A stretch of 64,000 bases of DNA from Sipunculus nudus. Lineage: Eukaryota > Annelida > Sipuncula > Golfingiida > Sipunculidae. Made by a program: the position numbers and the translations under genes. The stretch spans positions 3,227,464 through 3,291,463 of the forward strand of contig CM049320.1 in the NCBI GenBank assembly GCA_026874595.1, read 5' to 3'. The notes beneath the pieces are model-generated. The model was not told the origin of the DNA. It saw nothing but the letters and a program-made list of their open reading frames with translations, and made no database searches. Shown here in pieces: positions 1 through 63,691 of this stretch (position 1 is its first letter; the number at the start of each line of letters is the position of its first letter).

Positions 1-250
1 CCATCTTTTTCCGTTCAAACTTTTACACCTTTATCTCGCCCATCTTTTTCCGCTCAGACTTTTACACATTTATCTCGCCCTTCTTTTTCCACTCGCTCAC
101 ACTTATCTCGCCCATCTTTCTCCGTCACACACCACCTCGCCCATCTTTTGGCGTTCATACCGTGCCGCCTGGCCTCATGCTCGTGGCTCAGGCGATTAAA
201 AACGGAGACGTGAGTTAAAAATAAAAACAAGTGCTTTAATTCAACTCAAA
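1..250. repeat. Left-end minisatellite and conserved left-end block of Dada-like copy A
   Basis: About six degenerate copies of a unit built on CTCGCCCATCTTT plus TTCCGCTCACAC run to about 160. A conserved block follows: GCCGCCTGGCCTCATG at 164, an 'aggcgat' motif, AACGGAGACGTGAGTT and GTGCTTTAATTCA. The same order occurs near 16730-16930, 18700-18858 and 41780-41960, always in the same orientation, so it marks the left end of the element. In copy B the GCCGCCTGG block lies 417 bases inside the left terminus. The true left end of copy A should therefore lie a few hundred bases left of the window. Confidence 0.75.
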
Positions 251-2719
251 TAAATCAAGTGTAACAGAATTCGTGCCGGTAACAAAACAACGTGAACAAA
301 ACCATGTGAAATTAGCAAGAAATCATGTTAAATAAATTAACGAGAGTGCAATCATGTAAAATAAATTACTGTGAGTGAAATCACCAAATAATTAAAGTCA
401 ATTAAAGTATCAAACCTGATACTGTTCATTTTAAATATGAAATCATTCGATTAAAAGAATTATGAATACAATCACAAGAACCCATGCGATTTAAAAATGA
501 TATCACCCGTATACTCCAGTACAATCACATTAATAATCTCATATTCACGATAAACACCCGTATTTTACGTCTGGTATACCCAGATGATATGACAAGTATA
601 TGGAAATATAAAAACCAGTCCAGCTGGCTAGGTATTTATGCGTCTGTGTATATAAATAAATATATAAATGGACAGTGTTTGATGTTTGTGTGCACCTATA
701 TCTGCACATATCCTATATCTGTGACCTGTGTACCATCGGTAAAAAAAACCCTCTTTATAAATGAAAAGAGGGGAAAAATACACCTGTCTTTACATTTTCC
801 CTGAACTGCATACTATTGGTTAAAAAAAACCCTCTTTATTAATTTAAAGAGGGAAAAAAATATGCAGTCTTGTAAAAAAAAAAACCCTGGAAACTGTTTC
901 TTCCAGGGAAAAAAAATCATGGAGTTGAGAGGGAGGGGGGGGGTCACACCTGGCTTGTAACCTGCCCCCCCCCCCCCCCCCCAACTATTGTTTTGGCTTG
1001 TATGCACAGGGGCCACACCTTCGTTATTAAAACCTGTGCAGGCATGTGCTGTTTGCACTTGAGTGACCTTGTTGTTTGATCAATTCCTCAAGTTTTAATC
1101 AAACCTTGAGGTGTTAGTGATGTTAATGTATTAGTGTGTTAGTGTTAGTGTGGTTATTGCATGCACGAGATGCATCTCACATTTCTTGATTTCATACTCT
1201 GTTTCAACCATCACCCAAGTGTAATTTTACACCATTTCAATCTGTACACCATTTCAATCTCTGTACCTTTGTCAAGTGTAAACTTGTCCACCAACCACCC
1301 AAGTTCACACCAGTTTAAATATAAAGTAACTGATACAACCAGTGAAATATCTGTACCCATATTAATATATATCATTTAAACCAATGAAACTTCCAACCAA
1401 TCAATACATGATCATGTGCATCACCTGTGTGCACAAAATCCAATAATAACTATTTCATGAAATAAACACCATATTAACCTGAAACCTCAGGTTTTCATTT
1501 GTATATTTTTGGCACAAGTGTTTGTAACCAGGTACAGGCTATTTTTGGTTTGTTAGCTCATAGAACCCTTTGTGTACCGGTACACAGCCTGTACCTGATT
1601 GTAAACCCAAAATTGTTTAAACCTTTCATGTTTGTCTAGACCAAATGAAAGAAAATTCAGATACCAAATAGGCAATGCCTGCTCATGAGCACAAGTTACC
1701 CTGCATACCAACCCCATTCCCCCCTCCCTCTCCCTGCCCCCCCCCCCAAACAATTTCCTGTTGCATTTTCACCATTTCATATCATGATCAGCAGGAAGAT
1801 CACACTTGTATTTACTGTTCATTGACACCTGGTCATGTATTTGCTGTTTATCAGCTCCTGGTCATGCACAAGTCACAAGCTCTGGTTGCCCGAGATACAG
1901 GCAACCTCTAATCATGATCAGCAGATAATACCATAATGTACATGTATTCATCAACTCAGCAATCCCTGATCACAAAACAGTGTGCTACATATACCAGCAA
2001 CCAAAAGTTTATGTCAGCGCCCTGTACCATAATGGTATTTACTATAAAGTAAATTTTGTGCTCACTGAATGTGATGATCAGGAGAATATACCTTGTCACG
2101 AGCAAGTGTACATCAAAATAACTGCTGCCATTTATGTATACCAAAGAACTGAGTGTACCACAAAACTTATTGTTACCTTAACTGCTGATCATGACCAAAT
2201 ACACTTATTATATATTCTATGACCATAATATCTTTGATCTCCACTGCTGACCATGAGCATAAATTGTCTATACATTATTTGACCATGTATGTACACCAAA
2301 TAACTCTATGTCACAAAGTAGGTGTACATCAAATATCAGCTAGCATAAATGCTCACCATGAACATATACTCTGTACATTATATAACCAAAAGCATCATGT
2401 GTGTGTACTTGTCACCATGCATGTACACCATGAAGGTGTACACCAAATGGCATATACTCGGTATACTGTATCACCAAAAACATCATGTGTGTGTACTTGT
2501 CACCATGTATGTGCACCATGAAGGTGTACACCAAATAGCATATACTCTGTATACTAAATCTCCAAAAACACCGTGTGTGTGTACTCGCCACCATGTATGT
2601 ACACCATTAAGGTGTTAACCAAATAGCATATAATCTGTATACAGTATCACCAATAACACCACATTACACAAAAACTCACACACATGAAACAAAAGTCACA
2701 CACATGAAACACCTAGAGT
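250..2719. other. Non-coding left arm of copy A
   Basis: No gene is supported. From 300 to 480 are short degenerate repeats around 'gaaatcatgt' and 'aataaatta', also present at 16930-17060 and 42000-42080. Three small hairpins lie at 749-908. A C-run of about 16 is at 965-982. From 1660 to 2350 are scattered motifs built on 'gatcatga' and 'tgtacacc'. From 2426 to about 2690 is an 88-bp tandem repeat. The 3' untranslated region of the transposase gene should lie here on the minus strand, but I cannot fix its polyadenylation site. Confidence 0.5.
2426..2690. repeat. 88-bp tandem repeat just downstream of the transposase gene
   Basis: CACCATG(A)AGGTGTACACC recurs at 2426, 2514 and 2602 with an exact 88-base period. 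Each unit continues into 'aaatagcatatactc', 'tgtatac' and a 'gtgtgtgtact' stretch. Copy E keeps a shortened relic near 42430-42545 with the same 'gtacacca' words. Confidence 0.75.
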
Positions 2720-3380
2720 TCACTTCCGCCGCCCATATCCGCGGCTCATTAGGGCGGCCTTCCACTCCTCGAAAGTCGACGTTTCCTTGGCTGGGCAATA
2801 CCAGTTCCCGAAGTACTGTCTGTGGTTGCCATCCTGCCGGGGGAGGCCACACTTCCGGCATCGGATGGCTTCAGTGTGTCTCCGGTAGGTCTTCGTGGGA
2901 AGTCCCTTGGCCTCCTGTTCCTGCTTCCGCTTCAGGTAGTAGAAGCGGGAGCGAGTCATCGACGGGTCGGGTCTGACAGGAGGCTGCGAAGACCCACTTG
3001 CCGCACTTGGTTGTGCCGATGCCATACGAACAGGCTGCTGAGGCTGCGGAGCTGGAGCGGGCTGCTGAGGCAGCGGCGGAGGCAGCACGATCATCGTGTA
3101 TGGCATCGTCGCGGGCTGTGGAGACACCAGTACTGGTCTTGGAGGTGCTGGCGTGAGAACTGGTACCCTGGTTGCAGCTGGTCGACGGTGACGAACCTTG
3201 CTTTGGCCCGTTGTGATGTCCGGGAACGAGAAGGTCATCGGCCGGACATCGAAGCGTGGTAGGGCCACTGGCAAGGTCTGTGCTGGTGGAAGCGGTTCTG
3301 CAGCGGTGGTTGCTGGCGGCGGGAGGGTGATTCCTTGTTCTAGGACCTGTCTCTCCCGCCTCTTTTCACGCTTGTTGTAC
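2720..3380 (-). CDS. Transposase exon 11 (C-terminal zinc finger, stop)
   Basis: 661 bases coding residues 1243-1462 plus TGA. It opens YNKREKRRERQVLEQG, continues through a Pro/Gln-rich linker and ends with SMTRSRFYYLKRKQEQ, then RCRKCGLPRQDGNHRQYFGNW and a final CP. That gives a Cys-x2-Cys...His...Cys pattern likely to bind zinc. The phase closes exactly at the stop, which supports the whole exon model. In copy E this exon is the site of the LINE B insertion. Confidence 0.8.
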
Positions 3381-6300
3381 CTGGAAGTATAAAATAGCAT
3401 ATATTTTACTACAGAGTTGCACAAATACACCAATTTAATATGCATACAAATATATATATATAATACAGTTTGAAATATGGCATACATTTATTAAGTGTAT
3501 GGAGTCTGAAGTGGTTTGACTTAATGCCTCCCCCCCCCCCCCCCCAACACACAACGACTTATTTACAATCATTGATAGCAAAAGGTGATTCACCAGCCAA
3601 ATAAATAACAACAGATTATGACGCACTAATGATACAATGCTGTGTTTATAATGCTGATTTTACTCACCACTGCAGAAGTGTCGTGTTGTTGATGTCCACC
3701 AGCTGGAGTCCCGTCAAAGCTACAACCCTTGCATGAGCTGTCACGAGGTCCTGGATCTTCTTGTAGGCCCGACAAATCAGGGTCCACCGCAGTGTCGTCT
3801 TGCCTTTCACCGTGAGGGGATTCGGGAACAGGCTGCAGAGCTTCGACACCACGGCTTCCACATAGCGATTGCAGTCGGGCCACTGAGCAGGACCGCTCAT
3901 GCTGCCAAGGAAACATCTGAAAAACACAAACAAAAGCAAAGGTAAGCATTTATGTTAAATCTATAAACATGCAAGTCAACCTACAACATGATCTGATAAG
4001 AAACAGAATCCTGATTACCCCCCCCCCCCCCACCATAAACCTTACAGGTGTAGTTGTTTGTAATACATCAATTTTACTTCTAATACACCATTTATGTACA
4101 TAGTAACAAAGTGTATGGATACATCTTCAATATCAACTGCAATTCTCCCTTTTAGGCATTTAACATATACAGTTTAATTAGATATTTACCTTTTGGTGCT
4201 TTCAGCACCGGGATGACTGGGCGCCCCACGGGTCTTGGACGCCTTGAATCTGCCGCTGGCCTTGGTTTTGTGCCGCGGCTTGAATACCGTGGGGCGCTGA
4301 TCATACGGCGTCAGGTCGTTCCACAGCCGTATGATCTCGTCTGCCTGACTGTTGTTCACCGGTCCCTTCTGGTCGTGGAGCGACACCAGGTACGACGCCA
4401 AGGCGACGACCTTCTCGTACCCTGCCACTCCCTCGGGACCAACTGCTCCCTGGAAAACAGAAAAAGACATGATTTTAAGTTCACAGGAAATTAAAGGTAA
4501 GTGCATTGTAACTGCAATGGGAACCTGGTTAGCCCTGGCATTATTGGACACAACAACATTATGACGTATTTTAAATGGACACTTGTATGTTTAAGTCTTG
4601 CTTTACCATTGCTGACATGAAAATCTTTACAGCTAGAATTTTATATTAACTGGTGTTTTATTATAAACCAATAACAGTGAAAAACAAGTTAAACAATAAC
4701 ACTCATACCAATACTTGTTATAACAGGCACACATAAAAAAACACATGAAATATTTACCTCAGGATCAGACGAATCTGAAGATACAGGGGAGGAGGTAGCC
4801 AGAGGTGCAGCTTCACTCTGTTCCACCATAGGCTGGTCAGATGTAGAGGGTCCGGCCACGGGGGGGCTCTGGGCTCTCGTCTGGGGTTCTGACGCTGGCC
4901 TGGCGGGTGGAACCGGAGCTGCTTCTTCCCTCACCTCTTCTGGTTGGACACCAGGAACTGCACTAGGTGAGGGGGCACCAGTAACCGCGGTGGCAGAAAC
5001 TTCCCCGGCAGATGTGGCAGCAGAGACTGCAACACAAAAAGACCACACATATACCACTTGTAAATACTGCCAGAGTATCACGAACCATCTGTGTATGGTA
5101 CACTAACATGGGCAGTAGTAAAGATGCTCTCTGTATAACTGCTTGAAAAACGCTAACAATACATAGATATACTGTAAAGCTTTGTATACTGTGCACTATG
5201 TTTACTGACATTTCAAGTTGAATTGAAGTGATCAATGACCAAACACTATATATTTTACACCAAACACTTGACACTATTCCCTTTTTGTGTGGCAGGTTGT
5301 GCAGTATTGATCCAACTTACCATTTGCGTCGGGGAACACAACTTCTACTGGTGCTACAGTTGGATCCTCTGGCTCCTCGAAACCCTCATCAGACCTGTCG
5401 CCATCGCACAGTGGTGGCTCGTCAGTAGGCTGATCAGGGTCCATGGCCTGGTCCTGGAGCACTTTCCCTGTCTGGCTGAACAGGTACTCCACTCCAATCA
5501 ACTCCCCTGATCAAAGAAAACAACATCTAATTAATACATCTCACATAATAATTGACAAGCGATAACATTTTCATTCAAATAAACGTACCGGCTTTTTATC
5601 TACCGCCCCTCTCCCACCCGTTTTTTTTACTGCAATGTTGGTGTGTATTTTAGTAATCATTTTGTTCCAGTATCAGTCATGTACTTGTGGTGGTGGCATT
5701 TTTATCAGTGCAAATGTATTGATGCAAAGTGAAAGCTGGTTATTATATAATACTTTTCCAACAAACAACACAAACTGTGTCTAAACACACCTGTATACTT
5801 CCCGATCTGGCGAAGGGGCTGGACGAAGTTCTCTCCCATGACCTGGGAGCTCAGCTGGTTCAAGGCCTCGCACAAACTGCGGTGGTACACGTGGTGTTCC
5901 GGCGCGCGGGCTACTGGACCTTGTGAAACAGCTGCTCCGGCTCGGTCTTCGTTCCAGCGCCTCAGTCCTTCCAACAGGTACGCCTGAAAGTGCAGGTCGC
6001 TGGCACTGGTACCTGAAACAAACGAGCAGAAAACATTACAGAATGAATCAAACTACTCCCTTATTCATTTCCAGATTTATCTTCTTGGCTTCCTACTGAA
6101 AGAAAAACAGAAATGCTAAAATTAATCTCCCCGGCAGGCGCTGAAATTCAACCACGCGAGAACATGCATGAGATACTGCAGGCCTTATATATTACAGTCC
6201 CAACACTACCCCATATCTTAACGGGCCGTTCACTGGTATTGGTGACACAGAGCACACATCATTTGTTATAGTGTCTTTAACAAAACTGTTTACTTGTATT

Positions 6301-9300
6301 GCATGAGCCACCCACCTGGTATAAACCTGTTCTGGTGAAGATGGAAGGACTCGAGTGACGATGATCCGCGGGCACACCTGTACACGGGCAGCCTCACTCC
6401 CCCCTTGGTGACGTGGCCAGTCTCCACGTAGAGCTGTACTCCCTCGGGGTCCTGGAGGCAGCGGAGGTGCTTCTTCTGGGCGTTCCAGATGTTCCAGGTG
6501 CGGTCCGCGTCGAGCAACGGCACTCCTAAGGTATCTCTCCCTTGGGGTCCGGAGAAAGTGTTCAGCAGGTCTTCGATCAGAGAGGTTCCGTTGTGTGGAT
6601 CCCGGGTTCGGCGTCGACAGTGGGTGGATAGCTCCTTCCTGGAAATGTGCCTCAGGACGACACTGTCGGACGGGTTGGGGATTCCACTTCTGACCAACTC
6701 TTCTCGCTTGGCCTGCTTCAGCTGCTCCAGATCCTCCTCGCTCCATTCAAAAATACACAGTGACAAGCGGGCCATGAACACACCGTGCAGCTGGTGTGAC
6801 TCGGTGGTGCAGGCGGTGGCGATTCTTCGCATGAAGTGGTAAGCGTCGAGCCTGATCTGAAGGTCGGTCCACTCATGGAACAGGTTCCTCACCTTGGTTT
6901 CGCCTGCACAACAACAGTCCCTGTCAACGTACAGCAGCACTGGCGGGGCCACCCGCGCTTCGCGATAGCGTCTCATCAGTCCGTTGGCCATAGGCGCCAG
7001 GCCAGCGCCTTCGCTCGCTGTGAGCACGCTCATCAGCACTTCGCCGCGTTCGTTGCCGACGTTGGTGGCCCATGCCGCTGTACCCGCGCTGTGACCCGCA
7101 AGTTTGTGCACAATCTGCTTCGTAGAGTCCAACTTGAGAACGCATCCGAAGGTAGACGTAATGGACGCCTTCACCTCTTCCAGCCTCCCTTTTATGTCCT
7201 GGACGTAGACAGTGAGCAGCCACCTGCTTTCCGGGACCGGAACGTACGGTGGTGGCTTTTCGACGCTGCGGGGCAGAACGAGTCTGCGCTCTGCCGCCGA
7301 ACTGAAGGACTTGCAGTCCGTGAAGTACATCAGCGCCTGGTTGAAGTACTGCTCACTGTGCTGCTCGGAAATCTTCTTTTGGAGCTGGGTAGAGCTGTTC
7401 CCAAGGCCTCTCTGCCGAAGTAGACGGATGACCCTGATGTCGCACGCGTAGCGGTACGTGAGGAGCACTGGGAACTGCTGGCGGTGTCCGACGTCGAGTT
7501 GTTGGACGATGGCCGGACTCCAGGCGATCACCTTGCGTTTGCAGTTCTGGCACTCCAGGTACTCAGCCGCGAGGTTGTAGTAGCGGTCGACGTCAAGCAC
7601 TTGCCGGGTGTGTTGGTAGACTCCGGCACTGGTGAGCTCGACGTCCTTACAACCTTCCTGGGGGCAGACCAGCCGGACTTGCCACAGGCGCCGTGGCATC
7701 CACAGCAGGAGGCGCTGCGCGAAGTACAGGTCCGGGCGCGGGGGCTGGCTGCATATAGGTGCGGGCTGAGGAGGGTACCACCACAGCTTGTCGACTCTGA
7801 AACGACAAAGAAGTTCACAGTGATAAGTAATGTGACAAATTGTGTGGCGCTTCTTGTTTTTTAAGTCTTTATGCCCGCTGCCGCAGTGTCTTCATGCTGA
7901 TTACTGTATCGTTACCTAACCACTTTTAACGTTGTAGGCGCATGATAATATACACAAGTTAAAATTAACCCCGAGAACCTGAAACAGAATATTCACAAAA
8001 GATTAAACACAACAGCAATAAATCATTGTACTCCTCTATACTACTGTGTGACTCGTGCTTACCTGGCTGTGTCCAGTGTGGGCTTGCCAGTCTTGGGGTG
8101 GGTCTTGAACAGAGCACGGGAGATCCAACCGTGGTCCGCTTTCGGGAGAGAATCCCGCCATCCATCAGGGAGTGTCTGCGGACCTGGAAAATAAAAGGCG
8201 GAGGAATGCTACATTATCTTGCATAACATATTCCAATTTTAAATCAAAAGTGAGCAGGAGTCTGATGCAATACTGGTGTCTACCATTTAGACCTAAGACT
8301 GTGTAAGCATCATCAGACCTTCAGAACATTAATGTAGACTTTCTGTTATAAAGCACCAGTTTAATAAAACACATTTATTATTTATGAAGGACCCAGATCT
8401 GTAAAACATGTTCAAAGTTTAAAGTATCTTCCTAGCAGACATAAACATTTTGGGAAGGCCATTACAGCCACACCCGCTCAATCAGGTTGTTTGTGTAATT
8501 AAGAAATGTGGACGGAAAACCCACCTGAGGCACTTCCCAGTGGGACTCCTAACACAGGTTGGGAGACGGCAGGTGTCTGTGGAGGACTCAGTGTTGACTC
8601 CGAGACTGGAGTCGCCAGCCCTCGAGACTCTTGTGTAACTGTAACAAAGCAGACATTGTTCATTATGTGCAGTCTTATAACATACCGGTACCAAGTTTTT
8701 TGCACAAGTCTTCTTATTAAAATCATTTATGAGATCTTAATCCCTATGGCACACATATTATATATCACCCACCAAGGACTACGTTATTCACAGCATTTTT
8801 ATTCACCCCATTACTTTCTGCATGTTGGCATGTCATTTTAAATCACTTCTATATATTTTAAAGTAAACATATTCACCTGTTTGCCGTCTCTCAACCGCTT
8901 CGGCTACTGCTACCAGTTCTGCCTCGTCGCCGGAGTCGGACGAGTCCTGGGGTGGCCTGGATACGGTAGCAGTAGGGGATGGCCTGGGCGCTGGTTCCCG
9001 GGGCTGGTGCGGAACTGGTCCCGGGGAGGCCCTGGCCATCGACAGGTTCGGCATGACCGGGGAAGGGCTCCTGGACGTCAGGCTCTCCAACTTCTTCGCC
9101 AACCGGGCTCCGTGGAGATGACTACTCACGAGTGAGGCGATCCCGGTGGGTACAGGTGAGCTGGAGGCTGACCGCTGGCTGGGTGACGTGGTGGCCCTGG
9201 GTGTTGTCGGCCTGGTGACGGTGCTGGAAGGCTGCGTGGAGCTGGACTGGGAAGCCTGGGCTTCCCTCTTGGCAGCCTTCGCCGCGATGGCGTGCCGCGA

Positions 9301-9983
9301 CTCCGGAAAGGACTCGGCGTAGCGGCGTAGCGCATCCTTGTTCTGGCTGAGCGGTGCACCGGTCACCCTCTCGTGTCGCATGCTGTCCACGAGGTATCCC
9401 ACGTACCCAAGGTTGTTCTCCAAGAGCCACTTGAAAGTCTGGCCCCGGTATGCTCCAAACTGCACTCGGTATTCGCCAAGCACCTCGACCCGATCAGCTG
9501 GGTTCCCCCCACGCTTGGCGACATCCCGCAGTGCCAGTTTACGAACCTGAAGGAGTAAAAAAAAAAAGGAAATTTTTAAGTCTGATGGCCACTTATCACT
9601 TGGAGTGCATAATACAAAAAGCGCATTCATCATTTACAATTGGTTTTAATATGCTCTTTGTACAGGAACAATAAATTATTTTTTTTGTCGTTATCGGTTG
9701 TTGGATTATCATTTCAGTATGAATATGGAGTATGCAAACTTATTAATCACTCGACACATCACTTGTTACATTCAAACCAAGCTTCTTTACAACAGAAACA
9801 CTCAGGAATAGCAGCGTAACAACTTACCTGCTCTGAAGACATGGCCATAGGCACAGGCTTGCCCTTGTTAGCTTCGGCGACCCTCGCCGCCGCATTAGAG
9901 CAGCCCAAGGTGGGCTCTCCATCTGGGCGGCGCCGAAACCTGGGCCCGGCCTGTGTCCCCTCTGGCTTGGGTGTCTGGCTCAT
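2720..9983 (-). CDS. Dada-like transposase gene, 11 coding exons, 1462 residues, intact
   Basis: Joined minus-strand exons: 9983-9828, 9546-8877, 8638-8525, 8183-8063, 7796-6316, 6012-5791, 5506-5321, 5026-4758, 4449-4190, 3916-3668, 3380-2720. Every intron is GT-AG. The exons sum to 4389 bases with no internal stop, ending in TGA at 2722-2720. Domains in order: a basic head; an FGAYRGQTFKWLLENN domain (exon 2); a W-rich zinc ribbon CPQEGC...CQNC (about residues 398-439); a presumed RNase-H/DDE core; then conserved exons that I recall from multi-copy animal proteins carrying a DUF6729-type domain (from memory). Candidate catalytic acids are D577 (LKLDSTK), D645 (LYVDRDCC) and E836 (SLESFHLH). 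The expected role is cutting and integrating the element at U6 genes in the nucleus. The U6 junctions support transposase identity, but the biochemistry is inferred. Confidence 0.8.
3530..3545. repeat. C16 homopolymer in transposase intron 10
   Basis: Sixteen C on the plus strand, a G-run on the coding strand. A C12 run lies in the equivalent intron of copy E at 55473-55484. Confidence 0.9.
3668..3916 (-). CDS. Transposase exon 10
   Basis: 249 bases coding residues 1160-1242: CFLGSMSGPAQWPDCNRYVEAVVSKLC, LRWTLICRAYKKIQDLV, LQLVDINNTTLLQW. These are conserved-looking Trp/Arg motifs of the C-terminal region. Copy E has it at about 55616-55840 with a deletion, and copy B keeps a relic near 18404-18470. 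Confidence 0.8.
4018..4031. repeat. C14 homopolymer in transposase intron 9
   Basis: Fourteen C on the plus strand, so a G-run in the sense of the gene. The equivalent intron of copy E holds C17 at 55987-56003. Confidence 0.9.
4190..4449 (-). CDS. Transposase exon 9
   Basis: 260 bases coding residues 1074-1159. The motifs GYEKVVALASYLVSL, RLWNDLTPYDQRP and ASGRFKASK look like a compact helical domain. It is recognisable in copy E at about 56146-56365 (ASYLVSLLD, LRQYDQRPTVF, SSGRFKASK). The intron that follows carries a 14-base G-run on the coding strand. Confidence 0.75.
4758..5026 (-). CDS. Transposase exon 8 (Pro/Ser/Glu-rich linker)
   Basis: 269 bases coding residues 984-1073. VSAATSAGEVSATAV is followed by a long low-complexity linker rich in Ala, Pro, Ser and Glu. 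Copy E keeps it at about 58455-58715 with the same opening 'VSAAT' words and donor context. No domain is recognised. Confidence 0.7.
5321..5506 (-). CDS. Transposase exon 7
   Basis: 186 bases in phase 1, coding residues 922-983. It opens GELIGVEYLFSQTGKVL, which joins 'KYTG' of exon 6, and goes on as an acidic, Pro-rich tail (DPDQPTDEPP...). Copy E has a diverged counterpart near 59090-59260. Confidence 0.75.
5791..6012 (-). CDS. Transposase exon 6
   Basis: 222 bases in phase 1, coding residues 848-921: GTSASDLHFQAYLLEGLRRWNED, then LCEALNQLSSQVMGE and GKYTG. It continues 'RFIPG' of exon 5 without a break. Copy E preserves the exon at about 59546-59750 with a similar ASDLHFQAYLLDGLRRW segment, so it is under family-level conservation. 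Confidence 0.8.
6316..7796 (-). CDS. Transposase exon 5 (zinc ribbon and catalytic core)
   Basis: 1481 bases coding residues 354-847, the longest exon and the functional centre. It starts VDKLWWYPPQPAPIC and has a Cys-x4-Cys...Cys-x2-Cys zinc ribbon (C398, C403, C436, C439). A probable DNA-binding helical stretch follows (RLLRQRGLGNSSTQLQKK), then the RNase-H-like part. That part contains LKLDSTKQIVHKL, NERGEVLMSVL, LLYVDRDCC, RLDAYHFMRR, FMARLSLCIFEWS and SSSLESFHLHQNRFIPG. The spacing and local context of D577, D645 and E836 fit a DDE triad, but this is inference from pattern. Copy E keeps the same motifs at 60108-61635 in broken frames. Confidence 0.8.
8063..8183 (-). CDS. Transposase exon 4 (start of the W-rich domain)
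   Basis: Codes residues 314-354 (GPQTLPDGWRDSLPKADHGWISRALF...). The Leu-Pro...Asp-His-x-Trp-Ile motif followed by the 'DKLWWYPP' that opens exon 5 is the N-terminal signature of the domain I recall as DUF6729. Acceptor TTTTCCAG, donor CCAG|GTAAGC, phase 2 out. Confidence 0.75.
8525..8638 (-). CDS. Transposase exon 3 (linker)
   Basis: 114 bases in phase 1, coding residues 276-313 (VTQESRGLATPVSES...). It is low-complexity Ser/Pro/Thr linker. It is kept as an exon because both splice sites are good (TTACAG acceptor, CTCAG|GTGGGT donor) and the phases join exons 2 and 4 exactly. Confidence 0.65.
8877..9546 (-). CDS. Transposase exon 2 (YRGQTFKWLLEN domain)
   Basis: Codes residues 53-275. It opens VRKLALRDVAKRGG and then has the most conserved stretch of the N-terminal half: FGAYRGQTFKWLLENN, LGYVGYLVDSMRHE, NKDALRRYAESFPE. 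The second half is a Ser/Pro/Thr-rich linker. The acceptor follows a pyrimidine tract ending CTTCAG and the donor is ACAG|GTGAAT. The matching part is deleted from copy E. Confidence 0.8.
9828..9983 (-). CDS. Transposase exon 1
   Basis: Codes residues 1-52, starting MSQTPKPEG. It is rich in basic, Pro and Gly residues and probably disordered. The donor reads CAG|GTAAGTT (phase 0). Just upstream of the ATG the minus strand reads a T-run then CAG followed by AC-ATG. This is a good 3' splice site, implying a non-coding exon further upstream. Confidence 0.75.
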
Positions 9984-10064
9984 GTCTGAAAAAAATGAAG
10001 AAAAAATCTGTTGACATACTGTAAAAATATATATATTTTAATATTAAACTGTCCATAGTCTCCA

Positions 10065-10167
10065 ATACCAATGAATGGCCTTGTGTTTAATCTACATATA
10101 AATAAAAATTAATAGTACATAAATACATACATATATATATACATTATAAACATATATATATATTTAT

Positions 10168-10198
<31 letters not shown>

Positions 10199-10724
10199 TT
10201 TAACTTAATTTATATATATGACATACATTTAAAACATTTTTTGTCACCGATACCAATGAATGGCCCTGCTGGCGCATTAAAAAATGCTTTGTCTAAAATA
10301 CCTCTAACACCAGTAAATGCAGAACAAAAAATTACCCTAATGTTATAGAATATGCAAAAAGATGAGCAGATTATAATATTAAACTTTAAATAAAATACAC
10401 ATTGAAATAATTATGGCCCTAATACCAATGAATGGTCTGAGGGGACAAAAAATGCATTGTTGTTACCAATTATATTCATTTTTGTGCATATCTGTCACAA
10501 TCGCATATTTTCTTTGTTCCTGAATTCATTGGTATTAGTGCCATTCATTGGTATTTTTGACATCAAATTGGCTATAGATGTCAAAAATACCAATGAATGG
10601 CACTAATACCAATGAATTCAGGAACAAAGAAAATAAGCAAATGTGACATATTTATGCACAAAAATGCATAAAATACATACCAATAATGCATCCTGATTTG
10701 TCCCCACAGACCATTCATTGGTAT
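10065..10724. repeat. Cluster of ATACCAATGAATGG motifs
   Basis: Exact or near-exact copies lie at 10065, 10250, 10422, 10587 and 10606 on the plus strand, and at 10525, 10541 and 10711 on the minus strand. They are often preceded by 'cccta'. Copy E has its own set at 61789, 62019, 62120 and 62191, plus one at 59986 in the intron after exon 5. The copy A intron has a diverged relic at about 6228-6240. Confidence 0.85.
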
Positions 10725-10736
10725 TAGGGACACAAT
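10405..10736. repeat. Long palindrome, two ~160-base arms around a 12-base spacer
   Basis: Arms 10405-10564 and 10577-10736 are imperfect inverted copies. The inner 60 bases or so are nearly perfect (GATGTCAAAAATACC pairs with its complement), and the spacer is 'aaattggctata'. Each arm contains three ATACCAATGAATGG-type motifs and a 'ttcaggaacaaag' word. It could be a nested small inverted-repeat element or a regulatory structure. Confidence 0.85.
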
Positions 10737-11374
10737 TACTTAACCGTGTGTCACATTTATAGTTTATGTTAAAAATTATTCTAAATTATATGTATTATTA
10801 AAAATTTATATAGAATTACATCATATATGTATGTTAGAGTCAGTATATATAATATATATGTATAATATATAAATATATATATTATTCATTCAATAATTTA
10901 TTACATATTTATATTATCTATAAACTAATGTTACTGTCCGATAACAAAGGAAAGGGCAATTCGCAGGTATTAGGGACAAAACATGTTAAATTGTTAAATA
11001 TTATATTATATCATCACAATATTACTATAATTATGAAACAAAACAGATACATTCTGTATATATTACATATTTATATTATTTATACACATATGTAACTGCC
11101 CGATAGCAAAGATATGAGCTGTTACCAGGTATAAGGGACAAAACTTGTTAAAATTTACATATTAAAGTGTTTAAATTATTAATATAACATGTTATCTTCT
11201 TAATATATTTTAATAATAGTAATATAATTATAAAACTTCTCATAAAACAATAATCCTCTCGATATTTTATGATACACCATAAAACACATATTTTATATAC
11301 TGAACATGAGAATCAAAGCCAAATCTTCCCTTAAATATAGTGATGTAAACAAATTTATTCTTCAGAGTTTTATT

Positions 11375-12190
11375 TAACCAAAATACATGTATAAATATCA
11401 TTTTAAAATACACTTGAAGGAATTATCATGTTTCACATAATTTAAAGGATTGCGACAAACACCAAAGACATGTATGAATGTCATTTTAAATGCATTTGGA
11501 AGATTTATCATGTTTTACAACCTTTAAGAGCATGCGATAAACATCAAAGACATGTTTGAATGTAATTTTTAATACATTTGGAAGAATTATCATGTATTAC
11601 ATGTTTAAAGGATTGCGACAAGCACCAAAGACATGCATAAATGTCATTATTAATACATTTGAAGGAATAATCATGTTTTACATATTTTTAAGGATTACTA
11701 GAAATACCAAAGACATGTAAGGGAGACACTAAACAGTTTAAAAGAAAGAATAAATATTTAAAGTTGAGTTTTGAACCTGGATTTAATAAACATGGCATGC
11801 GATAAATACCAAAGACATGTATGGGTGACACTAAACAGTTTAAAAGACAAAATAAATATTTAAAGTTGAAATTTGGACCTGGATTTAATAAACATGGCAT
11901 GCGACAAAGACCAGAGACATGCAAGGGTGACACTAAACAGTTTAAAAGACAAAATAAATATTTAAAGTGGGAGTTTTGGACCTGGATTTAATAAGCATGG
12001 CATGCGACAAAGACCTGAGACCTGTATACATCATATTTTATATACATTTGGAAGAATTATGATATTTTACATATTTAAAGGATTGCGATTAAATCCTAAG
12101 ACATGTATTAATGTCATTTTAAATGCATTTAGAAGAATTGTCATGTTTTACACACTTCAAGGGCATGCGTCAAATACCAAAGACAAAGTT
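11375..12190. repeat. Minisatellite with two alternating monomer types
   Basis: Ten or so units start near 'caaagacatgtat'. One type of about 80 bases has 'tgtcattttaaatgcatttggaag', and another of about 100 bases has 'gacactaaacagttt' and 'cctggatttaataa'. 'ggcatgcgac' often closes a unit. Copy E keeps a short relic around 63390-63480. Confidence 0.75.
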
Positions 12191-13999
12191 TAAAGGCCAA
12201 AAAGTGGAACCATGAATCATTCAGATTTAATAGATTTTATAAACATTCCCATATCAATGGTGCATAAACAAATTGTACACCCTGATCACTGTAAACAAGT
12301 TCCATTATATCATAACAATGTCACAAGTGGTTGACCGGTTGGTGGTAAAGTATACAGGGGAAGGGGGGGGGGGAGGCTTATGTAAACAATACTGTGTACA
12401 GCAATTAACTGAAGCAGAAACATCTGGCTATTACATCACAACTGATACTGGATGACCAGAACAAGTGTCCACAGCTACTGAAGGATGCTGGCAGCTGACA
12501 AGGAACCCCCTCCATGAGAACAAGTCACAGGCCATACAGCTAATCAAGGGAACTGACTGCTAACAAGGAAACACCCCCCTCAGGAGTAGGTATAAGGGCT
12601 TGATGATGGGCCCCACTCAACACACAAAGAAGGTGATAAATGGGATTATTACACAGGGCTGAGGACATCATTATCTGATCATATACAATTAATTAATCAC
12701 AATGGGCTTTTCAGTTCCAATCAGACATGTCATCCTACCTATCATTATGTAGATACATCTTTTAAAATGACAACAAGACTGGGATTTCTAAGGGCCCTCC
12801 ATAAAGTAAACACCAAGTTCACTGTCATAATGACCATGAATTACACAAGTTCTTCAGATGTAAATATATTAGGAATTAATTTAATAAAACATGTAAGGTA
12901 CTGTCACATGTGGATGAATAAGAATATAGGCCCAATATGTATATTAAAACAGGACTCCTGTCACTGATATTATCACAAATTTGTAACAGGTCTAACAAAA
13001 ATATACAATTCAATTTATTTTGAATTCATGATTAAATACACAGGTAATGTAAACTGCTAATATATTCATGCCTCATGTTTACACTCATGTCACTGATATT
13101 ATTATTAATCACACATTTGAAGAAAACTAAAAATATTAATTTAGCATGATACAAACGAAGGCTACAAACATAACAACTCCTTGGGGTGATAAAGTATAAA
13201 AAGAAATTTTTTAAACCAGACATGACATGTCAGGATAAATTGAAATGAAATTCAGCTGTCAGAGATGGGAAACAACATATGCATGGCAAAAATGGAATTC
13301 ATGCAATGACAAGGAGAAAAAAATCAAAACAAATACAAGACTGCACATATCGAACTGGACTTCACTTCACCAATTTAAACATAAAATAAAAAAAAAATCC
13401 ATGCTTTTAAAGGCCGTATATGCCATGTTAAGGCTTGACTGTGATAACGAGCAGGGAATATTCGCGGTGCCGAGGTCTGATGTCAGAATTGCTTGCCACG
13501 CGTACGTGCAAAAATAGAAATTTGACATGAGGCCTGGAAGGGAGGGAGGGGGGGGGGGGGGGGGGAGGAAAACTGTGACTTTGTTTACCTGAAACCAGCC
13601 TGTTCCGAAGCAGTAAACGTCCAAAAGTTATGAGAAGGTTGTGGCCGATACATCCTGACTTGTTTACAAGGTAAAATCCATGACAATAAAATCGGTAAAT
13701 CCTAGCACAGACTTGGAGCGAAATGCCCAGACTCAGAACTTGGAACTGAAGTGAACATGGAACAGGGAAGCGTTCTGATTGGTCGAGAGTAGGGTCAGAC
13801 CAGTGCGGCCTGCACAACAATGTCGGATAAATCTTGAAAAACATTGGACTTTCACCGGAAAATACAGAGGTTTGTAAATTTTCCACAGCCCTGAAACTTC
13901 GGAGCAAGGTAGGTGACATTCTATTATAATCTTTGGCGTAAACCGGGGAAGGTAAAATTAGTTTTTAATCATGCACGGAGGACACATGCCTGGGTGAAA

Positions 14000-15050
14000 A
14001 TTGGCATTCCGAGGCGACGCAGTAAATTTGGAAATGTCGGGGGGGGGGGGGGATTTACGCCTGTAAAAACCCTGAGTTATAGCAAATCTCAAACTTTCTA
14101 CTGTCAATAAAGTTAGTTTTCGGTTGTTAAACATCATACTCTTGAAATTGATGCAGCTGAGACATGATATTGCATGGTTTATAGCGAGAATTGTCCTTTT
14201 TTCGAAGCGGGGCTGAGATGTAAACAAAGTGGTAAATTTGGAAATGGCGGGGGAATTTACGCCTGTAAAACCCTGAGTTATAGCAAATCTCAAACTTTCT
14301 ACTGTCAATAAAGTTAATTTTTGGTTGTTAAATATCATACTCTTGAAATTGATGCAGCTGAGACATGATATTGCATGGTTAATAGCGAGAATTGTCCTAT
14401 TTTCGAAGCGGGGCCGAGCCCGGCTGAGATGTAAACAAAGGGGGGGGGGGCAAACAGAGGGAGGGGAAAATGGGGCCGTTGTGACGGTGTTAGAAAAGGC
14501 TGTATTGCAGCCGTTTCAGCACTTGACAATGTCAATAAAGTTGGTTTCGAGACGAAAAACATACTAATAAATATATTTACACCACTGACTACGAGTTGTT
14601 ATTATTTTTTAAGCCATAAATCTGATTTTTCGAAGCGGGGCCGAGTCGAGGTCCAAAGTGACAGAGGGCTCGGCCGAGGTGACTTGGTGTCAGAAAAGGC
14701 TGTATTGCAGCCTTATCAAGCCATAACAATGTCAATAAAGTTGGTTTCGGGATGAAAAACATTCGAATAAATATATTTACACCAATCGCTGTGAGTTGTT
14801 ATCATTTTTATTGCCAGAAAGTCTGATTTTCGAAGCGGGGACCATCGGTCAGAAAGTGGAGGGGGGGGGGGAGGGGGGTGGTGAATTAAACCGATGTTTT
14901 CCTACCTTTGTTCTCAAACAGCTGGTTCCCAGAGAGACCTGTTGGTTGGTAAGGATCTTCTCTTAGCTTTTGATGTGTATTTCTGGGCTGTCAGGGTGCT
15001 GACGTTCAGAAATTAGCGATTGAAGGTCTAGAAGCGAAGCGGGGCCCTAT
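14000..15050. repeat. About 200-bp subterminal tandem repeats
   Basis: TGTCAATAAAGTT recurs at about 14102, 14303, 14528 and 14729. TTCGAAGCGGGG recurs at about 14200, 14402, 14628 and 14830, with a relic at 15034 (spacing 201, 225, 201). The first two units are nearly identical ('gagttatagcaaatctcaaa', 'gatgcagctgagacatgat') and later units are diverged. Confidence 0.8.
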
Positions 15051-15069
15051 GTACCTGAAGCGAGCTAGC

Positions 15070-15300
15070 AGATTTGGAACTCCTCGGCTTGTGATTGGCC
15101 GAGAGCCTGGGTTCCACATTGCTGCTGTTACCTGATTGGCCGGTGAATTTGGCATTGCCAGTTCCAGATTTGTGAGATTTGGAACAACCCCAGGCTCTGA
15201 TTGGTTATGAATCTGGTACTTGTGGAACAAGGCCAGGCTCTCATTGGCTGGCAGTTCCAAATCTAACAAAGGCTTATACTCAAAGATCAGACCGAATTAA
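15070..15300. promoter_or_regulatory. Right terminal region with inverted TTTGGAAC words and ATTGG boxes
   Basis: TTTGGAAC or its complement GTTCCA(A) occurs six times between 15073 and 15262. ATTGG (inverted CCAAT) occurs at 15094, 15135, 15200 and 15243. The terminal 23 bases contain ACTCAAAGAT (15278-15287), the inverted match of ATCTTTGAGT in the left end of copy B. Transposase binding here is inference. Confidence 0.5.
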
Positions 15301-15343
15301 GCGCAAGGATGACACGCAAATTCGTGAAGCGTTCCATATTTTT
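15301..15343 (+). pseudogene. U6: U6 snRNA 3' half, split by copy A
   Basis: GCGCAAGGATGACACG, then the rest of the canonical U6 tail (CAAATTCGTGAAGCG, TTCCATA), ends in a T5 Pol III terminator at 15339-15343. The match to metazoan U6 is essentially exact. The sequence just upstream is unrelated, so the 5' half is missing here. It should lie left of the window on the far side of copy A. The first six bases, GCGCAA, equal the six bases before copy B. Confidence 0.92.
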
Positions 15344-16325
15344 CGCCCCCTCTAAAATTAGAAAGAAAAAAAAAAAAATAATAATCCAAAATCAAAAGTT
15401 GGAAAAAAAAAAAAGTGACTTGTACCCCGCGCAATAAAATTTTGTGTAGGGTCCATCGGGCCAAATGTAAAATCAGGCCCGCAGCCGGACGGATAAATTA
15501 ATTGGCGTGTGGGCGGCCTGGAGGTTTGCTGGTTAAAAACCTTCCTAAATATACCTGACGGGCTGATCTGTTTTTCAGGGCCGGAGGACCTTCGCAACAC
15601 CAGTGCGCCCTCATCGGGGGCGATCCGGGAGCCGGCGACATCTGCTGGAGATAGGTCGTGTCACCGGGTTGCTGTGTGTGCCGCCAGGCAGGCTGTCGTA
15701 TGTGAGTGAGTGTTGCATGTCCGACAGGAAGGGACCCGAAAGGTTGAATTTTTTATTCGCCAACAAAGTTGATGAAAGGACAGTCATATACATTTATCAC
15801 TATTCAGAGACTTTGGACTGTGTAACGGTTTCTTTCGTGTGCGTGCGTGCGTGCGTGCGTGTTTGTCCGTGCGTCTGTTTGTAAATCTCTCTGTCAGCAT
15901 TAACGGGATGATATATATTAAAAAATTTCAAGGACAAGAAACAAAAAAAAAAAAAAAAAAAACCCACAAACTACTTAATTTCTCATGACTAGAGTGTAGA
16001 AGTACCTAAATCTTGATTCTTCAATAACCCGCCAGGCGGCGGCGGAACCTGAACAACGGAAGCAGGACGTAAACAAGGCGTCAGGTGTCCCGTCACGGCT
16101 GGGCACGCAGCTAATCCCCATGAATAACCTGCAGAAAAAAATGCACACAAGCCGACCCGCCTTAAAATAAAAAGCTTCCACCTGGACCCAGTCTCAACTG
16201 CAAAACACAACCACCTTTTTCTTTTGCCACACACAGGTTTGTTAACCGCGGGTTAAGGCCCTTGTCCACGTGGTTGCCGCCACGAAGGCGCCACACCCGA
16301 GATAAAAGATGGCGGCGCTACCCCG
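15344..16325. other. Spacer between two U6 genes
   Basis: About 1 kb without a supported protein gene. It has A-rich runs at 15363-15380 and 15402-15412, a GC-richer stretch around 15560-15700, a short GTGC microsatellite at 15840-15862, and an A-run at 15943-15962. It lies between the U6 terminator and the TATA box of the next U6 gene, so it is probably the native spacer of a U6 tandem array. Confidence 0.55.
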
Positions 16326-16333
16326 TATAAATG
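16326..16333 (+). promoter_or_regulatory. TATA box of U6 gene
   Basis: TATAAATG begins 31 bases before the inferred U6 start at 16357, the usual place for the Pol III type 3 TATA box. A proximal sequence element should lie near 16295-16312, but I have no reliable consensus for this lineage. Confidence 0.75.
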
Positions 16334-16356
16334 GCAGATGTATGCGCTGCCTAACT

Positions 16357-16381
16357 GTACAGCTTCATGCTGTACATATAT

Positions 16382-16413
<32 letters not shown>

Positions 16414-16428
16414 GGCCCCTGCGCGCAA
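16357..16428 (+). pseudogene. U6: U6 snRNA 5' half, cut by copy B
   Basis: The start aligns base for base in length with metazoan U6. A GTAC...GTAC stem (16357-16360 with 16372-16375) replaces the usual GTGC...GCAC. Then come AAAATTGGAACG, the ACAGAGA box (ACAGAGAAG), the catalytic triad (TTAGC) and ATGGCCCCT. After a two-base GC insertion, GCGCAA ends the U6 match at 16428, and the telestem and 3' tail are missing. The core is conserved, but the gene is broken exactly where the copy A target is broken. Confidence 0.88.
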
Positions 16429-18570
16429 GGACAGGCGCGCAATCTTTGAGTGTGGCCACACGCACCGAAAAGCGCCGATTCCGGCCAGAAAGGAGAAATT
16501 CAATGGCACACAAAGCTTTCTTTCAGGTCCAAAAGTCCCCCGGTCCCAGCGTTAATTGTCAGGTCGCTGCGAGCGAGAGAAATCGCCCTTTCTGCGAGAA
16601 CAATGCCTATTCATTACCGGCTCGGTCCGCCATTCACACTCGCCGGAGCATAGAGACCCCTTTCATTCCCGCCTGAGCGCTTTACGCTCAAGCCTCGCTC
16701 TGATACTCGGCACTGTCTAACCCAGCTATCATCTTTTGGCGTTCATCCTACTTTCTCCCTCATCTTTTGGCGTTCATAATACTTTCGCCCCCATCTTTCG
16801 GCCTAGCACACACGTTAGCACTCATCTTTCGGCGTTCCACACTTGCCGCCTGGCCTCATGTACGTGCACAGGCGATGTATAACGGAGACGTGAGTTTAAG
16901 GGAAATTGTGCTTTTAATTCAGTTCAAACAAAAACAAGTGTACATGAAATCATATGAAATGAAACAACGTGAAAGAAATCATAGGAATTACGTGCAGGAA
17001 ATCACTTTAAATTAAATCATGTGCAGGAAATCATACGAAATAATAAACATGCAGAAAATGATACGGATCAAACACGGAAACCAGTTTCTTTTAACGGATA
17101 CTGATCATACGCGTCGTGCACGAAAGTCTGACCTTCCAGGTTTAATCAGAAAGGCCGATCTGTCTGCTCTGATATCACAGTCTCTACAATCAGTTTGATT
17201 TACACTAGTTCTCGATTTATGCATGTGAAATCTTTATTATATATATACATTGATATTTGAAATCCATATTTTGCGTCTGTTCTATACATGCATGAAATAA
17301 TATAAATAAAGACTGGTCTACATTTGTGTTTCTTTGTGCATATATATGTGCTGTGCGGCAGTGTGTTTCACGTGCGTAAATATGCAGGTTTCTATACCAT
17401 TCCAGACTGTCGGTAAGAGGCATATTTTACGAATAATACAAAAGATCTGTACAAAAAGACGCATTGTTCAGTTGCACTGGCTGTATAAACAAACACCAGA
17501 GTTACTGCTCCTTGTAAAAAGCTATCACCTTATCTGGTTCACAATAAACAAACTATACAGAAAATAATGAAATAAACAAACAGAGTATTGACCAAATTCA
17601 CTCTCATTGCCATCTCCTTCATTAAAACCGCTGTGGTTATCTGCTGTTTGTACCCTTTGCGTAGGCCCTCTGTCACTTTTGTTCATCTTCTGTATACAGT
17701 TTTTCAAATCCGGTTAATATGGTTAATGTTAATGTATTAGTGGGTTACAATGTTAACATCTGGTTATGTCATGACGCACAGTATAAACCAGTTCATACAT
17801 CTGTAGTGATGATGTGTATGTTGCATTAACACCAAATAACATCAGAAATATACCTGTTAACAAGTTACAAGTTAGTGTGCACCAAATACCAGATTAATGT
17901 GGACACTAAAGCACATTTACTTTTTGTACAGTCTGTATCCTTGGCTCCACAGGTCCTCAAAGCTGAGTCTCATTGGCAGACTTTCTTTGTTCTCTGAGTA
18001 GATGGAGACACTTTGCGTAGGCCCTCTGTCACCTTGTGTTTATCTTCTGTATACAGATTTCATGTTTTTCAAATCCTGTTAATATGGTTAATATATTAGT
18101 GGGTTACAATGTTAACGTCTGGTTATGTCATGACGCACAAGATACATCAGTTTATACATCTGTTTAATATGAAGTATGTTTCAAGTAAATTTTGTCAAAT
18201 TTATTCCTTTTTGTCCTGTTCTCTATTGGTTTAACCTCAGTATGCCCCCCCCCAAAAAAAAGAACTGTTATCACATTTTAAAAATATCTATTTCTTAGGG
18301 TGTTTACCAGGCAAACAATCAAAAACAATAAGTTACGATGAACAGGTCCACACAATCCTGATTGGCATATATGATCCTGTGATTCAAATACAGATACAGA
18401 TTTTACTCACAACTGCACTGGAGTAGTCTGGTTGTTGTTTATCATATCCATCATTTGGCCATTGGTCATTGCCACAATAACAGCTAGACAGGCTCTGAGA
18501 GTAGCTTGGGAGTATCTGGAGATGTGCTCTGAGTAGCTGGAGAGAATGTGTGAGTAGCTGTAGATGCTTT
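16429..18570 (-). mobile_element. Dada-like element, copy B, internally deleted
   Basis: It begins right after GCGCAA of the U6 5' half. ATCTTTGAGT is at 16442-16451. The left-end minisatellite follows near 16730-16845, then the GCCGCCTGG block at 16846 and the ACGGAGACGTGAGTT block. 16930-17060 matches the left arm of copy A. A relic of transposase exon 10 with its donor side lies at about 18404-18470 (minus strand). Most of the transposase gene is absent. The right boundary is set where a new left-end copy begins at about 18575. Confidence 0.65.
18404..18470 (-). pseudogene. Relic of transposase exon 10 in copy B
   Basis: 'TTTTACTCACAACTGCA' matches the exon 10 donor region of copy A ('ttttactcaccactgca' at 3658). 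'gttgttgtttatcatatcc' corresponds to the INNTTLLQW-coding part. Frame and flanks are otherwise lost. Confidence 0.5.
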
Positions 18571-19960: not shown

Positions 19961-20109
19961 TAGGCAAGCCAAAACAGTCGAAGGCCAAAGAGGGTGGTCG
20001 ACAGTTCAAGGTCAAGACAGTGGCTCCTGCAGAGAATGTGGAGAGTGATGAGGACTTTTTGGACATGCATTATTTAACTGTGTATTCTCTGGACTCTAAA
20101 GTTTATGTT

Positions 20110-41762: not shown

Positions 41763-42575
41763 CACTTGATGTGAGACACGTTTTGCCCACATCTTTCACC
41801 GTTCCACACTCTTATCGCCCTCATCTTTCACCGTTTCACATACTTTCGCCGTCACACACTTTTACTCAACTTTCGGCGTCACATATCTTCTCGCCTTGCC
41901 TCAGGGCTGTGCTCAGACGATGTTTAACGGAGAAGTGAGTTAAAAATAAACGTGCTTTAATTCTTATAAAACATTTCAAGTGTTCAAGAATTCATGCGAG
42001 TAATACAAAACACAATGTGACCACATGAAAAATCATGTGAAATTTATTGTGCGTGAAATCATATAAAGTTAAGTAATGTGCAGGCAAATAATACGGATCA
42101 AACATGCGTGTCCACGTTCTTGATACGTAATCAGTTGATCAAACCTGATACTGATGACAGCAGTTGTTAATATGAAAGAAATCTTTTAAAATAAAAAATA
42201 ATTAATACCATACTTGTCTTGTTTGAACCCCGTATACTCCAATATAATCACAAGAACCTATATGATATCAGAGTCTCGTTTATAACATTTTTAACACTAA
42301 CACTACCAGCTGGTTTAGTTTATCATGAAAGTGTTTATATTTCCATGTACATATATCATCTGGGTATACCAGACGCAAAATACGGAGGTATATTTTTAGT
42401 GTGCGTATAGTGAAAACCAGATAACACAAGTACTTGTACACCAAATATCTTCTACCACCAATGCCCATAAAGAGCATACACTGTAAATGTACACCATATA
42501 ACACAAGTAATTGTACACCAAATGCCCATAAAGAACATACACACACACACATAAAACAATCACAAACAGTCACAG

Positions 42576-42785
42576 TTACTTGCGCCGCCCATATCCTTTG
42601 GCCTGGAGGGCGGCTTTCCAGTCATGGAAGCTCGATGTGTCCTTTGCGGGACAGTACCAGTTGTCATAGTACTGCTAACGGGCGCCATTCTGCCGGGGGA
42701 CCCCACACTTTCGACATCTGAGGTGTCGTGTGCTTTCTGTATGTCTCCACGGGAAGTCCCTTGGCCACCTCTTCCAGGGGCTGAT
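42576..42785 (-). pseudogene. Copy E transposase exon 11, C-terminal piece
   Basis: The TAA stop is followed (reading back) by codons for GYGRRK, as in copy A where the stop is TGA. 'cggcgccattctgccggggg' and 'tccacgggaagtcccttggcc' match copy A 2827-2920. The match ends at about 42785 inside the KRKQEQEAKGLP-coding part, where LINE B begins. Confidence 0.8.
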
Positions 42786-56879: not shown

Positions 56880-58190
56880 TCATAAGTAGATGTCCTATAG
56901 CAAAAACCCTGTCTGTCTGTCCATCCGTCCATCCACATAAATTTGTTTCCAGATGATGACTCCAGGTTGGATTGACACATGAGTTTCGGGTTATTAGGTC
57001 AAAGATCAAGATCAAGGTCACAGGATTCACTTATTTAAAACGATTATTGCTGCATGTAAAGCCAAGTTTTCCATCCTAAAATTTCCATCTTGTGCATTTA
57101 GCTGATTTGCCAGTCTGGGCAGAGCATAAATTAATTTGGGGTCACAAGGTCAAAGGGCAAGGGGCCATATAGCAAAAACCCTGTCTGTCTGTCCATCCGT
57201 CCATCCACATAAATTTGTTTCCAGATGATGACTCCAGGTTGGATTGACACATGAGTTTCGGGTTATTAGGTCAAAGATCAAGATCAAGGTCACAGGATTC
57301 ACTTATTTAAAACGATTATTGCTGCATGTAAAGCCAAGTTTTCCATCCTAAAATTTCCATCTTGTGCATTTAGCTGATTTGCCAGTCTGGGCAGAGCATA
57401 AATTAATTTGGGGTCACAAGGTCAAAGGGCAAGGGGCCATCTGTTCACAAATTAGTTTCCAGATGATAACACCAGTTTAGTTTGATATATTGGTTTCAAA
57501 CTTAACATATATGGCTCACCACTAAAGTAAGAACCATGTCGATTTTGGTCCCAACGGTCAAAGGTCCAGGTCACAGGACCCATTTCTTTAAAAAGAATTT
57601 GTATGCATTTCAAGCCAAACTTTTTATCACAAACCTTCCATCTTCAAGATATTGCTATCCTGCCAATACGGGTAGATTCTGTTCGATTTTAGGGTCATAG
57701 CGTCAAATTTCAAGGTCACAGGGTCCATCCATTCACAAATTAGTTTATGGATGATAATTCTGCTTTGGATAGACAGATTGGCTTCAAACTTGATTTATTA
57801 AAGACCCACCACTTAAGTAAATTCATTTTAATTTTCAGGGTCCAGAGATCAAAGTGGAAGGTCACAGGAGTCACTTCTTTAAAAAGATTGTGGATGCACT
57901 GTAGATCAAACTTTTCATCCCAAACTTTCCATCTTTCACAGATGACTTACTTACCCAAAGTGAGGAAATCTGTAGATTTTGACGTTACCTGGTCAGAGGT
58001 CAAGGTCACTTTTTAAAAGATTGTTACAATAATCTAAATGCTGAAAGTTCAAGAATACTAACTTCTAAGATTTTTTGGTCACAAGGTTATTGGTTAAGGT
58101 CACAGGACTGTCATTCTAAAAAAATTCTTTAATAATATTCTTATAGACAAATTCAGCTTCGAGCGTCGAGACCCATGGGTCCCTAGTTAA
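56880..58190. repeat. 'AAGGTCAAGGTCAC' dispersed repeat with an exact 272-bp duplication
   Basis: Units begin at 56896 and 57168 and look identical over 272 bases (TATAGCAAAAACCCTG to AAGGGCAAGGGGCCA). Further diverged units continue to about 58190 with 'aggtcacagg', 'ttcaaacttga' and 'gatgataa' words. This type of repeat is, from memory, common in bivalve genomes. Confidence 0.85.

Positions 58191-63652: not shown

Positions 63653-63691
<39 letters not shown>

Follow-up and report, generated by a model that had tools for sequence, protein, structure and literature searches.

Which transposon broke two neighbouring U6 small nuclear RNA (snRNA) genes at the same base in Sipunculus nudus, and is it bound to U6? 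The locus lies in a stretch of 64,000 nucleotides (hereafter the window; C15:3227464-3291463 in a genome of 1,426,538,692 bases on 153 contigs). The right end of one transposon copy, A, is followed by the 3' half of a U6 gene, and the left end of a second copy, B, is preceded by a U6 5' half. In all likelihood, these are Dada superfamily insertions into a small U6 tandem locus, at the site published for Dada-U6. The target of Dada-U6 is described as U6 positions 65-70, GCGCAA, with a 6-bp duplication (PMC3706591). A, B, and a third copy, Z, to the left of the window resemble Dada-U6 (Dada-U6_DR and others; Kojima and Jurka 2013, PMC3706591) in sitting at the same U6 base, with GCGCAA. Dada-U6 has been reported from Chordata, Arthropoda, Mollusca, and Annelida (PMC3706591, PMC8869645).

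Rfam family RF00026 (U6) matches 16357-16424 on the plus strand with 63.1 bits (E 1.4e-13, model positions 1-66, gathering score 44) and, in a second match, 15300-15343 on the plus strand with 34.4 bits (E 7.8e-5). The second score is below gathering because only half of the gene is present, as expected. On both sides, the hexamer GCGCAA forms the junction of the U6 half with the transposon end (15301 and 16428). The 3' half opens with GCGCAAGGATGACACG at 15301, and the 5' half closes with CCCCTGCGCGCAA at 16428; an intact U6 gene elsewhere in this genome, on contig C16, reads CCCCTGCGCAAGG at the corresponding stretch. The 43 bases from 15301 equal the C16 gene without a difference. Both halves are on the plus strand, confirming the proposal of the initial annotation that the right end of A and the left end of B occupy one U6 site in the same orientation. 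The U6-junction observation is real and not due to chance. The Rfam alignment of the B-side U6 is intact except for the 5' stem and two extra bases discussed below. The letters of this stem are unlike those of the C16 gene, yet it folds into 7 bp, and TATAAA (16326-16331) precedes the U6 start by 26-31 bp. Judged by this stem and this TATAAA, the B-side U6 was a gene-like copy.

Two exact copies of the motif GCGCAAGGA are present in the window, at 15301 and 16423. At one mismatch or fewer the motif has 9 matches there (shuffle mean 6.5; 19 of 100 shuffles reach 9), and on its own this short motif proves nothing. A 9-bp duplication of GCGCAAGGA was considered. We retain 6 bp instead, since this length makes the sub-terminal repeats symmetric and since the two GCGCAA hexamers beside a related copy on C16 are followed by different letters.

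A and B carry sub-terminal inverted repeats, ACTCAAAGAT/ATCTTTGAGT, each separated from GCGCAA by 13 bp. Exact ATCTTTGAGTNT is found in the window only at 15276-15287 (minus strand) and 16442-16453 (plus strand). Allowing one mismatch leaves the count at 2 (shuffle mean 1.99; 61 of 100 shuffles reach 2); the evidential weight of ATCTTTGAGTNT is in its exactness, its inversion, and the equal 13-bp distance to GCGCAA, not in the match count. At the right ends of A, Z, and the C16 copy, at the left end of B, and in intact U6, 14 bp separate the end of AAGA from the junction. The distance is 13 bp at a further copy, F. By eye, it is 14 bp at the left end of a relative on C11 and 20 bp at the left end of the C16 copy, which has an extra GGGCAA. 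The elements resemble Dada-U6 in lacking a terminal inverted repeat and in having sub-terminal inverted repeats that keep register with the AAGA of U6. In the published description, all Dada-U6 elements are said to share TCTTCTCTG/CAGAGAAGA at the distance present in U6, and a role of the AAGA common to ends and U6 in site choice is offered as a speculation of Dada's describers (PMC3706591). Under the proposed mechanism, the DDE transposase would cut the two U6 strands 6 bp apart around GCGCAA and join the element there, repair would then double the hexamer, and AAGA at equal distance in element ends and U6 might help site choice.

The transposase is read from copy A. Its catalytic exon (6290-7699, minus strand) matches Pfam DUF6729 (3e-66) and keeps the catalytic residues D191, D259, and E450 and the DxxH motif (D285-x-x-H288). 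An N-terminal CCCC zinc finger is recognized by eye at C12, C17, C50, and C53 of the catalytic exon, and a C-terminal CCHC (C-x2-C...H...C), also by eye, in exon 2720-3487; the distances to H and to the last C are each one residue shorter than in the published Dada CCHC. Eight exon cores lie between 9549 and 2723, as delimited by tblastn with homologues and by frame reading. None of the eight contains a stop, and an AG acceptor is listed ahead of five of them, indicating an intron-bearing transposase gene. The predicted structure (mean predicted local distance difference test score 82.6, predicted template modelling score 0.58) has the ISCth4 transposase as its best PDB match (E 4.4e-5), the only one of 495 matches at E <= 0.001. 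ISCth4 is a member of the IS256 family. The IS256 family is named as a relative of Dada (PMC3706591). Among PDB sequences, the Dada alignment found 0 matches. Given the DUF6729 match, the conserved DDE and DxxH, the stop-free exon cores, and the best fold match, A is assigned on its predicted protein to the Dada superfamily, coding opposite to U6. The Dada type named in the initial annotation is therefore upheld by DUF6729, DDE, DxxH, and the zinc fingers of A, and A agrees with Dada-U6 in the transposase opposite to U6, as published for zebrafish, and in the presence of DDE, DxxH, CCCC, and CCHC. In contrast, A measures at least about 15.2 kb, if 101-15300 is a single element, unlike the published complete Dada elements of 4,666-10,979 bp (PMC3706591). 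Scoring of 8,000 candidates gave 760 protein matches; the named hosts among the 120 matches listed are fish, molluscs, shrimp, anemone, sea urchin, and amphioxus, the rest being unnamed. In trees of 85 and 43 rows, A groups with 14 and 13 unnamed metagenome rows, respectively, together with the anemone Actinostola (support 99). No row of these trees carries an insertion-target label.

The left region of A (101-364) is 71% identical to B (16781-17043) over 271 columns, and A is 66-76% identical to two decayed stretches, one at 41.8-42.8 kb and one at 54.7-64.0 kb (inverted-repeat rows left out), the latter being the window's other transposase-bearing copy. The usual family threshold is the 80% identity rule. 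Because 71% falls below it, A and B are, by this measure, related lineages rather than the single recent family that the initial annotation saw in them, and would be separate lineages at the same U6 base pair. It is unlikely that all junctions go back to a single old U6 insertion, whose U6-Dada unit was later duplicated or converted along the locus. A and B are only 71% alike, whereas the U6 half at A is unchanged over 43 bases and the Rfam match at B is near intact, which fits diverged elements that inserted separately, unless U6 was homogenised by conversion.

For the pair Z and A, however, duplication or conversion may well be correct. Directly left of window base 1 lie 12,500 N, and 500 N lie 2,500 bases before those. 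Copy Z, between these two N runs, ends at the same base of the U6 3' half as A (C15:3214752), and the spacers after Z and after A are 98.8% identical over 169 columns. Over 15100-15510, Z and A show no substitution and two gap columns; upstream, those 100-bp bins that align well are 44-86% identical. Therefore, it is probable that one of these two junctions was copied from the other or that conversion homogenised them. The N runs of 500 and 12,500 bases around copy Z, up to window base 1, speak for the junctions being assembly or haplotype artefacts. This explanation is very improbable, as both the A and B junctions lie within N-free window sequence, at the published base and register.

The window holds one copy with a stop-free catalytic exon (A) and several decayed pieces, not five complete elements A to E as first annotated. 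The initial annotation suggested looking for a U6 3' half after copy E. E is cut ~7.1 kb past the window (window coordinate about 71119), where its right part abuts the left end of another Dada copy, F, with neither U6 nor GCGCAA at the join. A U6 query over the readable part of C15:3191304-3441463 finds only three pieces, at Z, A, and B. Decayed Dada copies continue on the plus strand at C15 3.347-3.401 Mb. At C15 3.42-3.43 Mb, minus strand, there are tandem pieces of the A right end with ~275 bp spacing. At gathering level, Rfam adds one borderline tRNA over 19 neighbouring and C16 loci.

Relatives on C16 and C11 bear on whether U6 is the only target. The C16 copy runs from 207821 (left end) to 214384 (right end) in the same orientation (6,564 bp; coordinates counted from the letters), with GCGCAA on both sides as a 6-bp target site duplication, within the 6-7 bp of the Dada superfamily; A and B are readable at one end each. 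Its right end, CAAAGAAGA, is one letter off the published repeat. The catalytic-exon search gives no transposase match between its ends. The C16 copy is thus like Dada-U6N1_DR, an internally deleted Dada-U6 (PMC3706591), in keeping both ends without a transposase match, but unlike it in lying outside U6. The C11 relative is a left end, from C11:68346902 onward, at GCGCAA in non-U6 sequence. These relatives show 87-88% identity at the left end and 80% at the right end. The left flank on C16, TATAAAAG ... GAGGGGTTGAGGATCTGACAT, is identical to the C11 flank in 25 of the last 26 bases, and a TATA box stands upstream of GCGCAA in both flanks. The right flank on C16 has a 5-bp stem with a 7-nt loop, similar to a tRNA T arm, and a short T run at its end; taken whole, the stretch does not outdo shuffles in folding (124 of 200 fold as well). 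As a protein-coding start, the joined flanks were rejected, since no long frame is present. Rfam names neither the C16 nor the C11 flank, and neither is recognised as tRNA-Ala.

It is quite conceivable, though slightly disfavoured, that the lineage inserts at GCGCAA in two or more genes, of which U6 is just one. The C16 copy with GCGCAA on both sides and the C11 left end, all in non-U6 sequence, speak for this. However, the joined C16 site is not found intact at three mismatches or fewer, and the C11 and C16 copies could be products of one event. GCGCAA may also be carried along, or the C16 flanks may come from different places: GCGCAA travelling with the element is described for Dada-tA (PMC3706591, PMC8869645), and two flanks from different places for Dada-tA and Dada-tL (PMC3706591). 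In having GCGCAA beside the element in a non-U6 place, C16 and C11 resemble Dada-tA (PMC3706591; Kojima 2022, PMC8869645), a lineage placed close to Dada-U6; unlike published Dada-tA, their flanks match neither tRNA-Ala nor another Rfam family. From these sequences, the C15 lineage would either use a second gene with GCGCAA or carry GCGCAA along.

Several observations weigh against Dada-U6 insertion as the explanation of the locus. Positions 16420-16428 read TGCGCGCAA, whereas intact U6 reads TGCGCAA there, so that the B-side 5' half carries two extra bases (GC) before GCGCAA, unlike Dada-U6 as described. Rfam and the letters support the two halves and the hexamer at both junctions, as first annotated; the two extra bases had been missed there. 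The sub-terminal repeats of A and B, TCTTTGAGT/ACTCAAAGA, share only TCTT/AAGA with the published TCTTCTCTG/CAGAGAAGA; the likeness to published Dada-U6 ends thus holds for register and site and fails for the other letters. The superposition on ISCth4 is weak (template modelling score 0.31, root-mean-square deviation 18.4). The left flank of A reads N, and no copy is read with U6 on both sides. In addition, six GCGCAA junctions are read, U6 being present in three (all at the C15 locus) and other sequence in three (C16 and C11); the six cover a minority of the genomic Dada copies. The proposed U6 specificity is accordingly supported in part only; at up to two mismatches, U6 3' pieces that start with GCGCAA are found at the C15 locus alone.

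Genome-wide, with 91 of 110 candidates scored, 72 stretches match the catalytic exon of A, and A alone spans all 469 residues stop-free. A U6 core pattern (23 bases, up to two mismatches) has 4 places, the B-side half counted, and a U6 3' pattern (24 bases, up to two mismatches) has 22, 6 of them exact. All 3' matches other than Z and A sit inside U6 matches extending further 5'. At up to two mismatches, no U6 half broken at GCGCAA is found outside the C15 locus, although older decayed ones would escape. Only two near-consensus U6 genes are found elsewhere in the assembly (C16). Outside the C15 cluster, 2 of 16 Dada places (C14 and C16) have a U6 match above 60 bits no more than 100 kb away (binomial P 6.7e-5), a lead only, because the distance, the threshold, and the grouping were set manually once the data had been seen. 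U6 matches are 63-74 kb away from the Dada sequence at C16:54.31-54.32 Mb and about 31 kb away from that at C14:46.53 Mb. Right-end DNA of A matches 13 rows, which are A and Z, ten rows within C15:3.41-3.43 Mb, and C16:214154. Left-end DNA of B matches 6, namely B, C11, C16, F in two rows, and a short match at 18.6 kb of the window. Viral contigs scanned with the two U6 patterns and the transposase gave nothing usable; records near the window's genome may be absent there. A truncated U6 on C2 was rejected as a comparable junction, as its break is at another base.

Other Dada and U6-like sequences were also seen. A different Dada lineage, 39% identical to A, has identical scores at C6:50288264, 50301473, 50314681, 88351581, and 88364651, with a spacing of ~13.1-13.2 kb, as if in tandem units. 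Three U6-like copies at C4:55507109, 55575156, and 55777078 share flanks and AAGGTTAGC; two read GGCGCAA, the one at 55575156 reads GGGGCAA, and the hairpin of 55507109 resembles that of the B-side U6 5' half. A dispersed U6-like family occupies 13 places with identical GCGCAAGGAAGACACGCAGATTCG.

Table 1 Features of the window (strand of A, its transposase gene, and E is the transposase strand)
Feature	Position	Strand	Remark
Dada A	1..15300	-	left end outside the window, beyond N
Transposase gene of A	2720..9549	-	eight exon cores, stop-free
Sub-terminal inverted repeat of A	15278..15287	-	13 bp from GCGCAA
U6 snRNA 3' half after Dada A right end	15301..15343	+	begins GCGCAA; Rfam 34.4 bits
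Target hexamer GCGCAA, A right junction	15301..15306	+	
U6 spacer	15344..16356	+	TATAAA at 16326-16331; first 167 bases also after copy Z
U6 snRNA 5' half before Dada B left end	16357..16428	+	extra GC before GCGCAA; Rfam 63.1 bits
Target hexamer GCGCAA, B left junction	16423..16428	+	
Left end region of Dada B	16429..17043	+	
Sub-terminal inverted repeat of B	16442..16451	+	13 bp from GCGCAA
Decayed left region of Dada copy	41843..42775	+	
Decayed Dada copy E	54753..63974	-	stops in catalytic exon

Long inverted repeats at 10380-10766 (Dada A) and 61640-62147 (copy E) are seen in the C16 copy too. They account for microRNA matches at 10.5 and 61.7 kb, which are below gathering and were rejected as genes. 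Decayed copy E contains two identical 272-bp tandem units (56896-57439). Among the Dada pieces, Gag-protease/integrase and LINE-type frames lie at 19678-22835, 33768-35450, 44929-45501, and 48214-49563; Pfam matches some of these frames as reverse transcriptase or endonuclease.

Dada in U6 is already known; the departures here are the altered sub-terminal repeats in a kept register, the unusual length, and the relatives at non-U6 GCGCAA. On a more speculative and rather improbable reading, Dada may have been caught switching target, with a U6 lineage that keeps the AAGA/TCTT register and relatives in a second gene with a TATA box. On this tentative view, Dada may drive snRNA-locus turnover rather than hide harmlessly, because all three readable C15 U6 pieces are broken by Dada and only two near-consensus U6 genes are found elsewhere in the assembly. 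Few of the DNA transposons in animals are site-specific, and Dada is a candidate as a targeted-insertion tool. Copy A, stop-free in the examined exons, beside diverged and differently placed relatives, offers material on which end and target bases set the site. Most of the published sub-terminal repeat is lost here and AAGA is kept in register, which narrows the question of the site-deciding bases.
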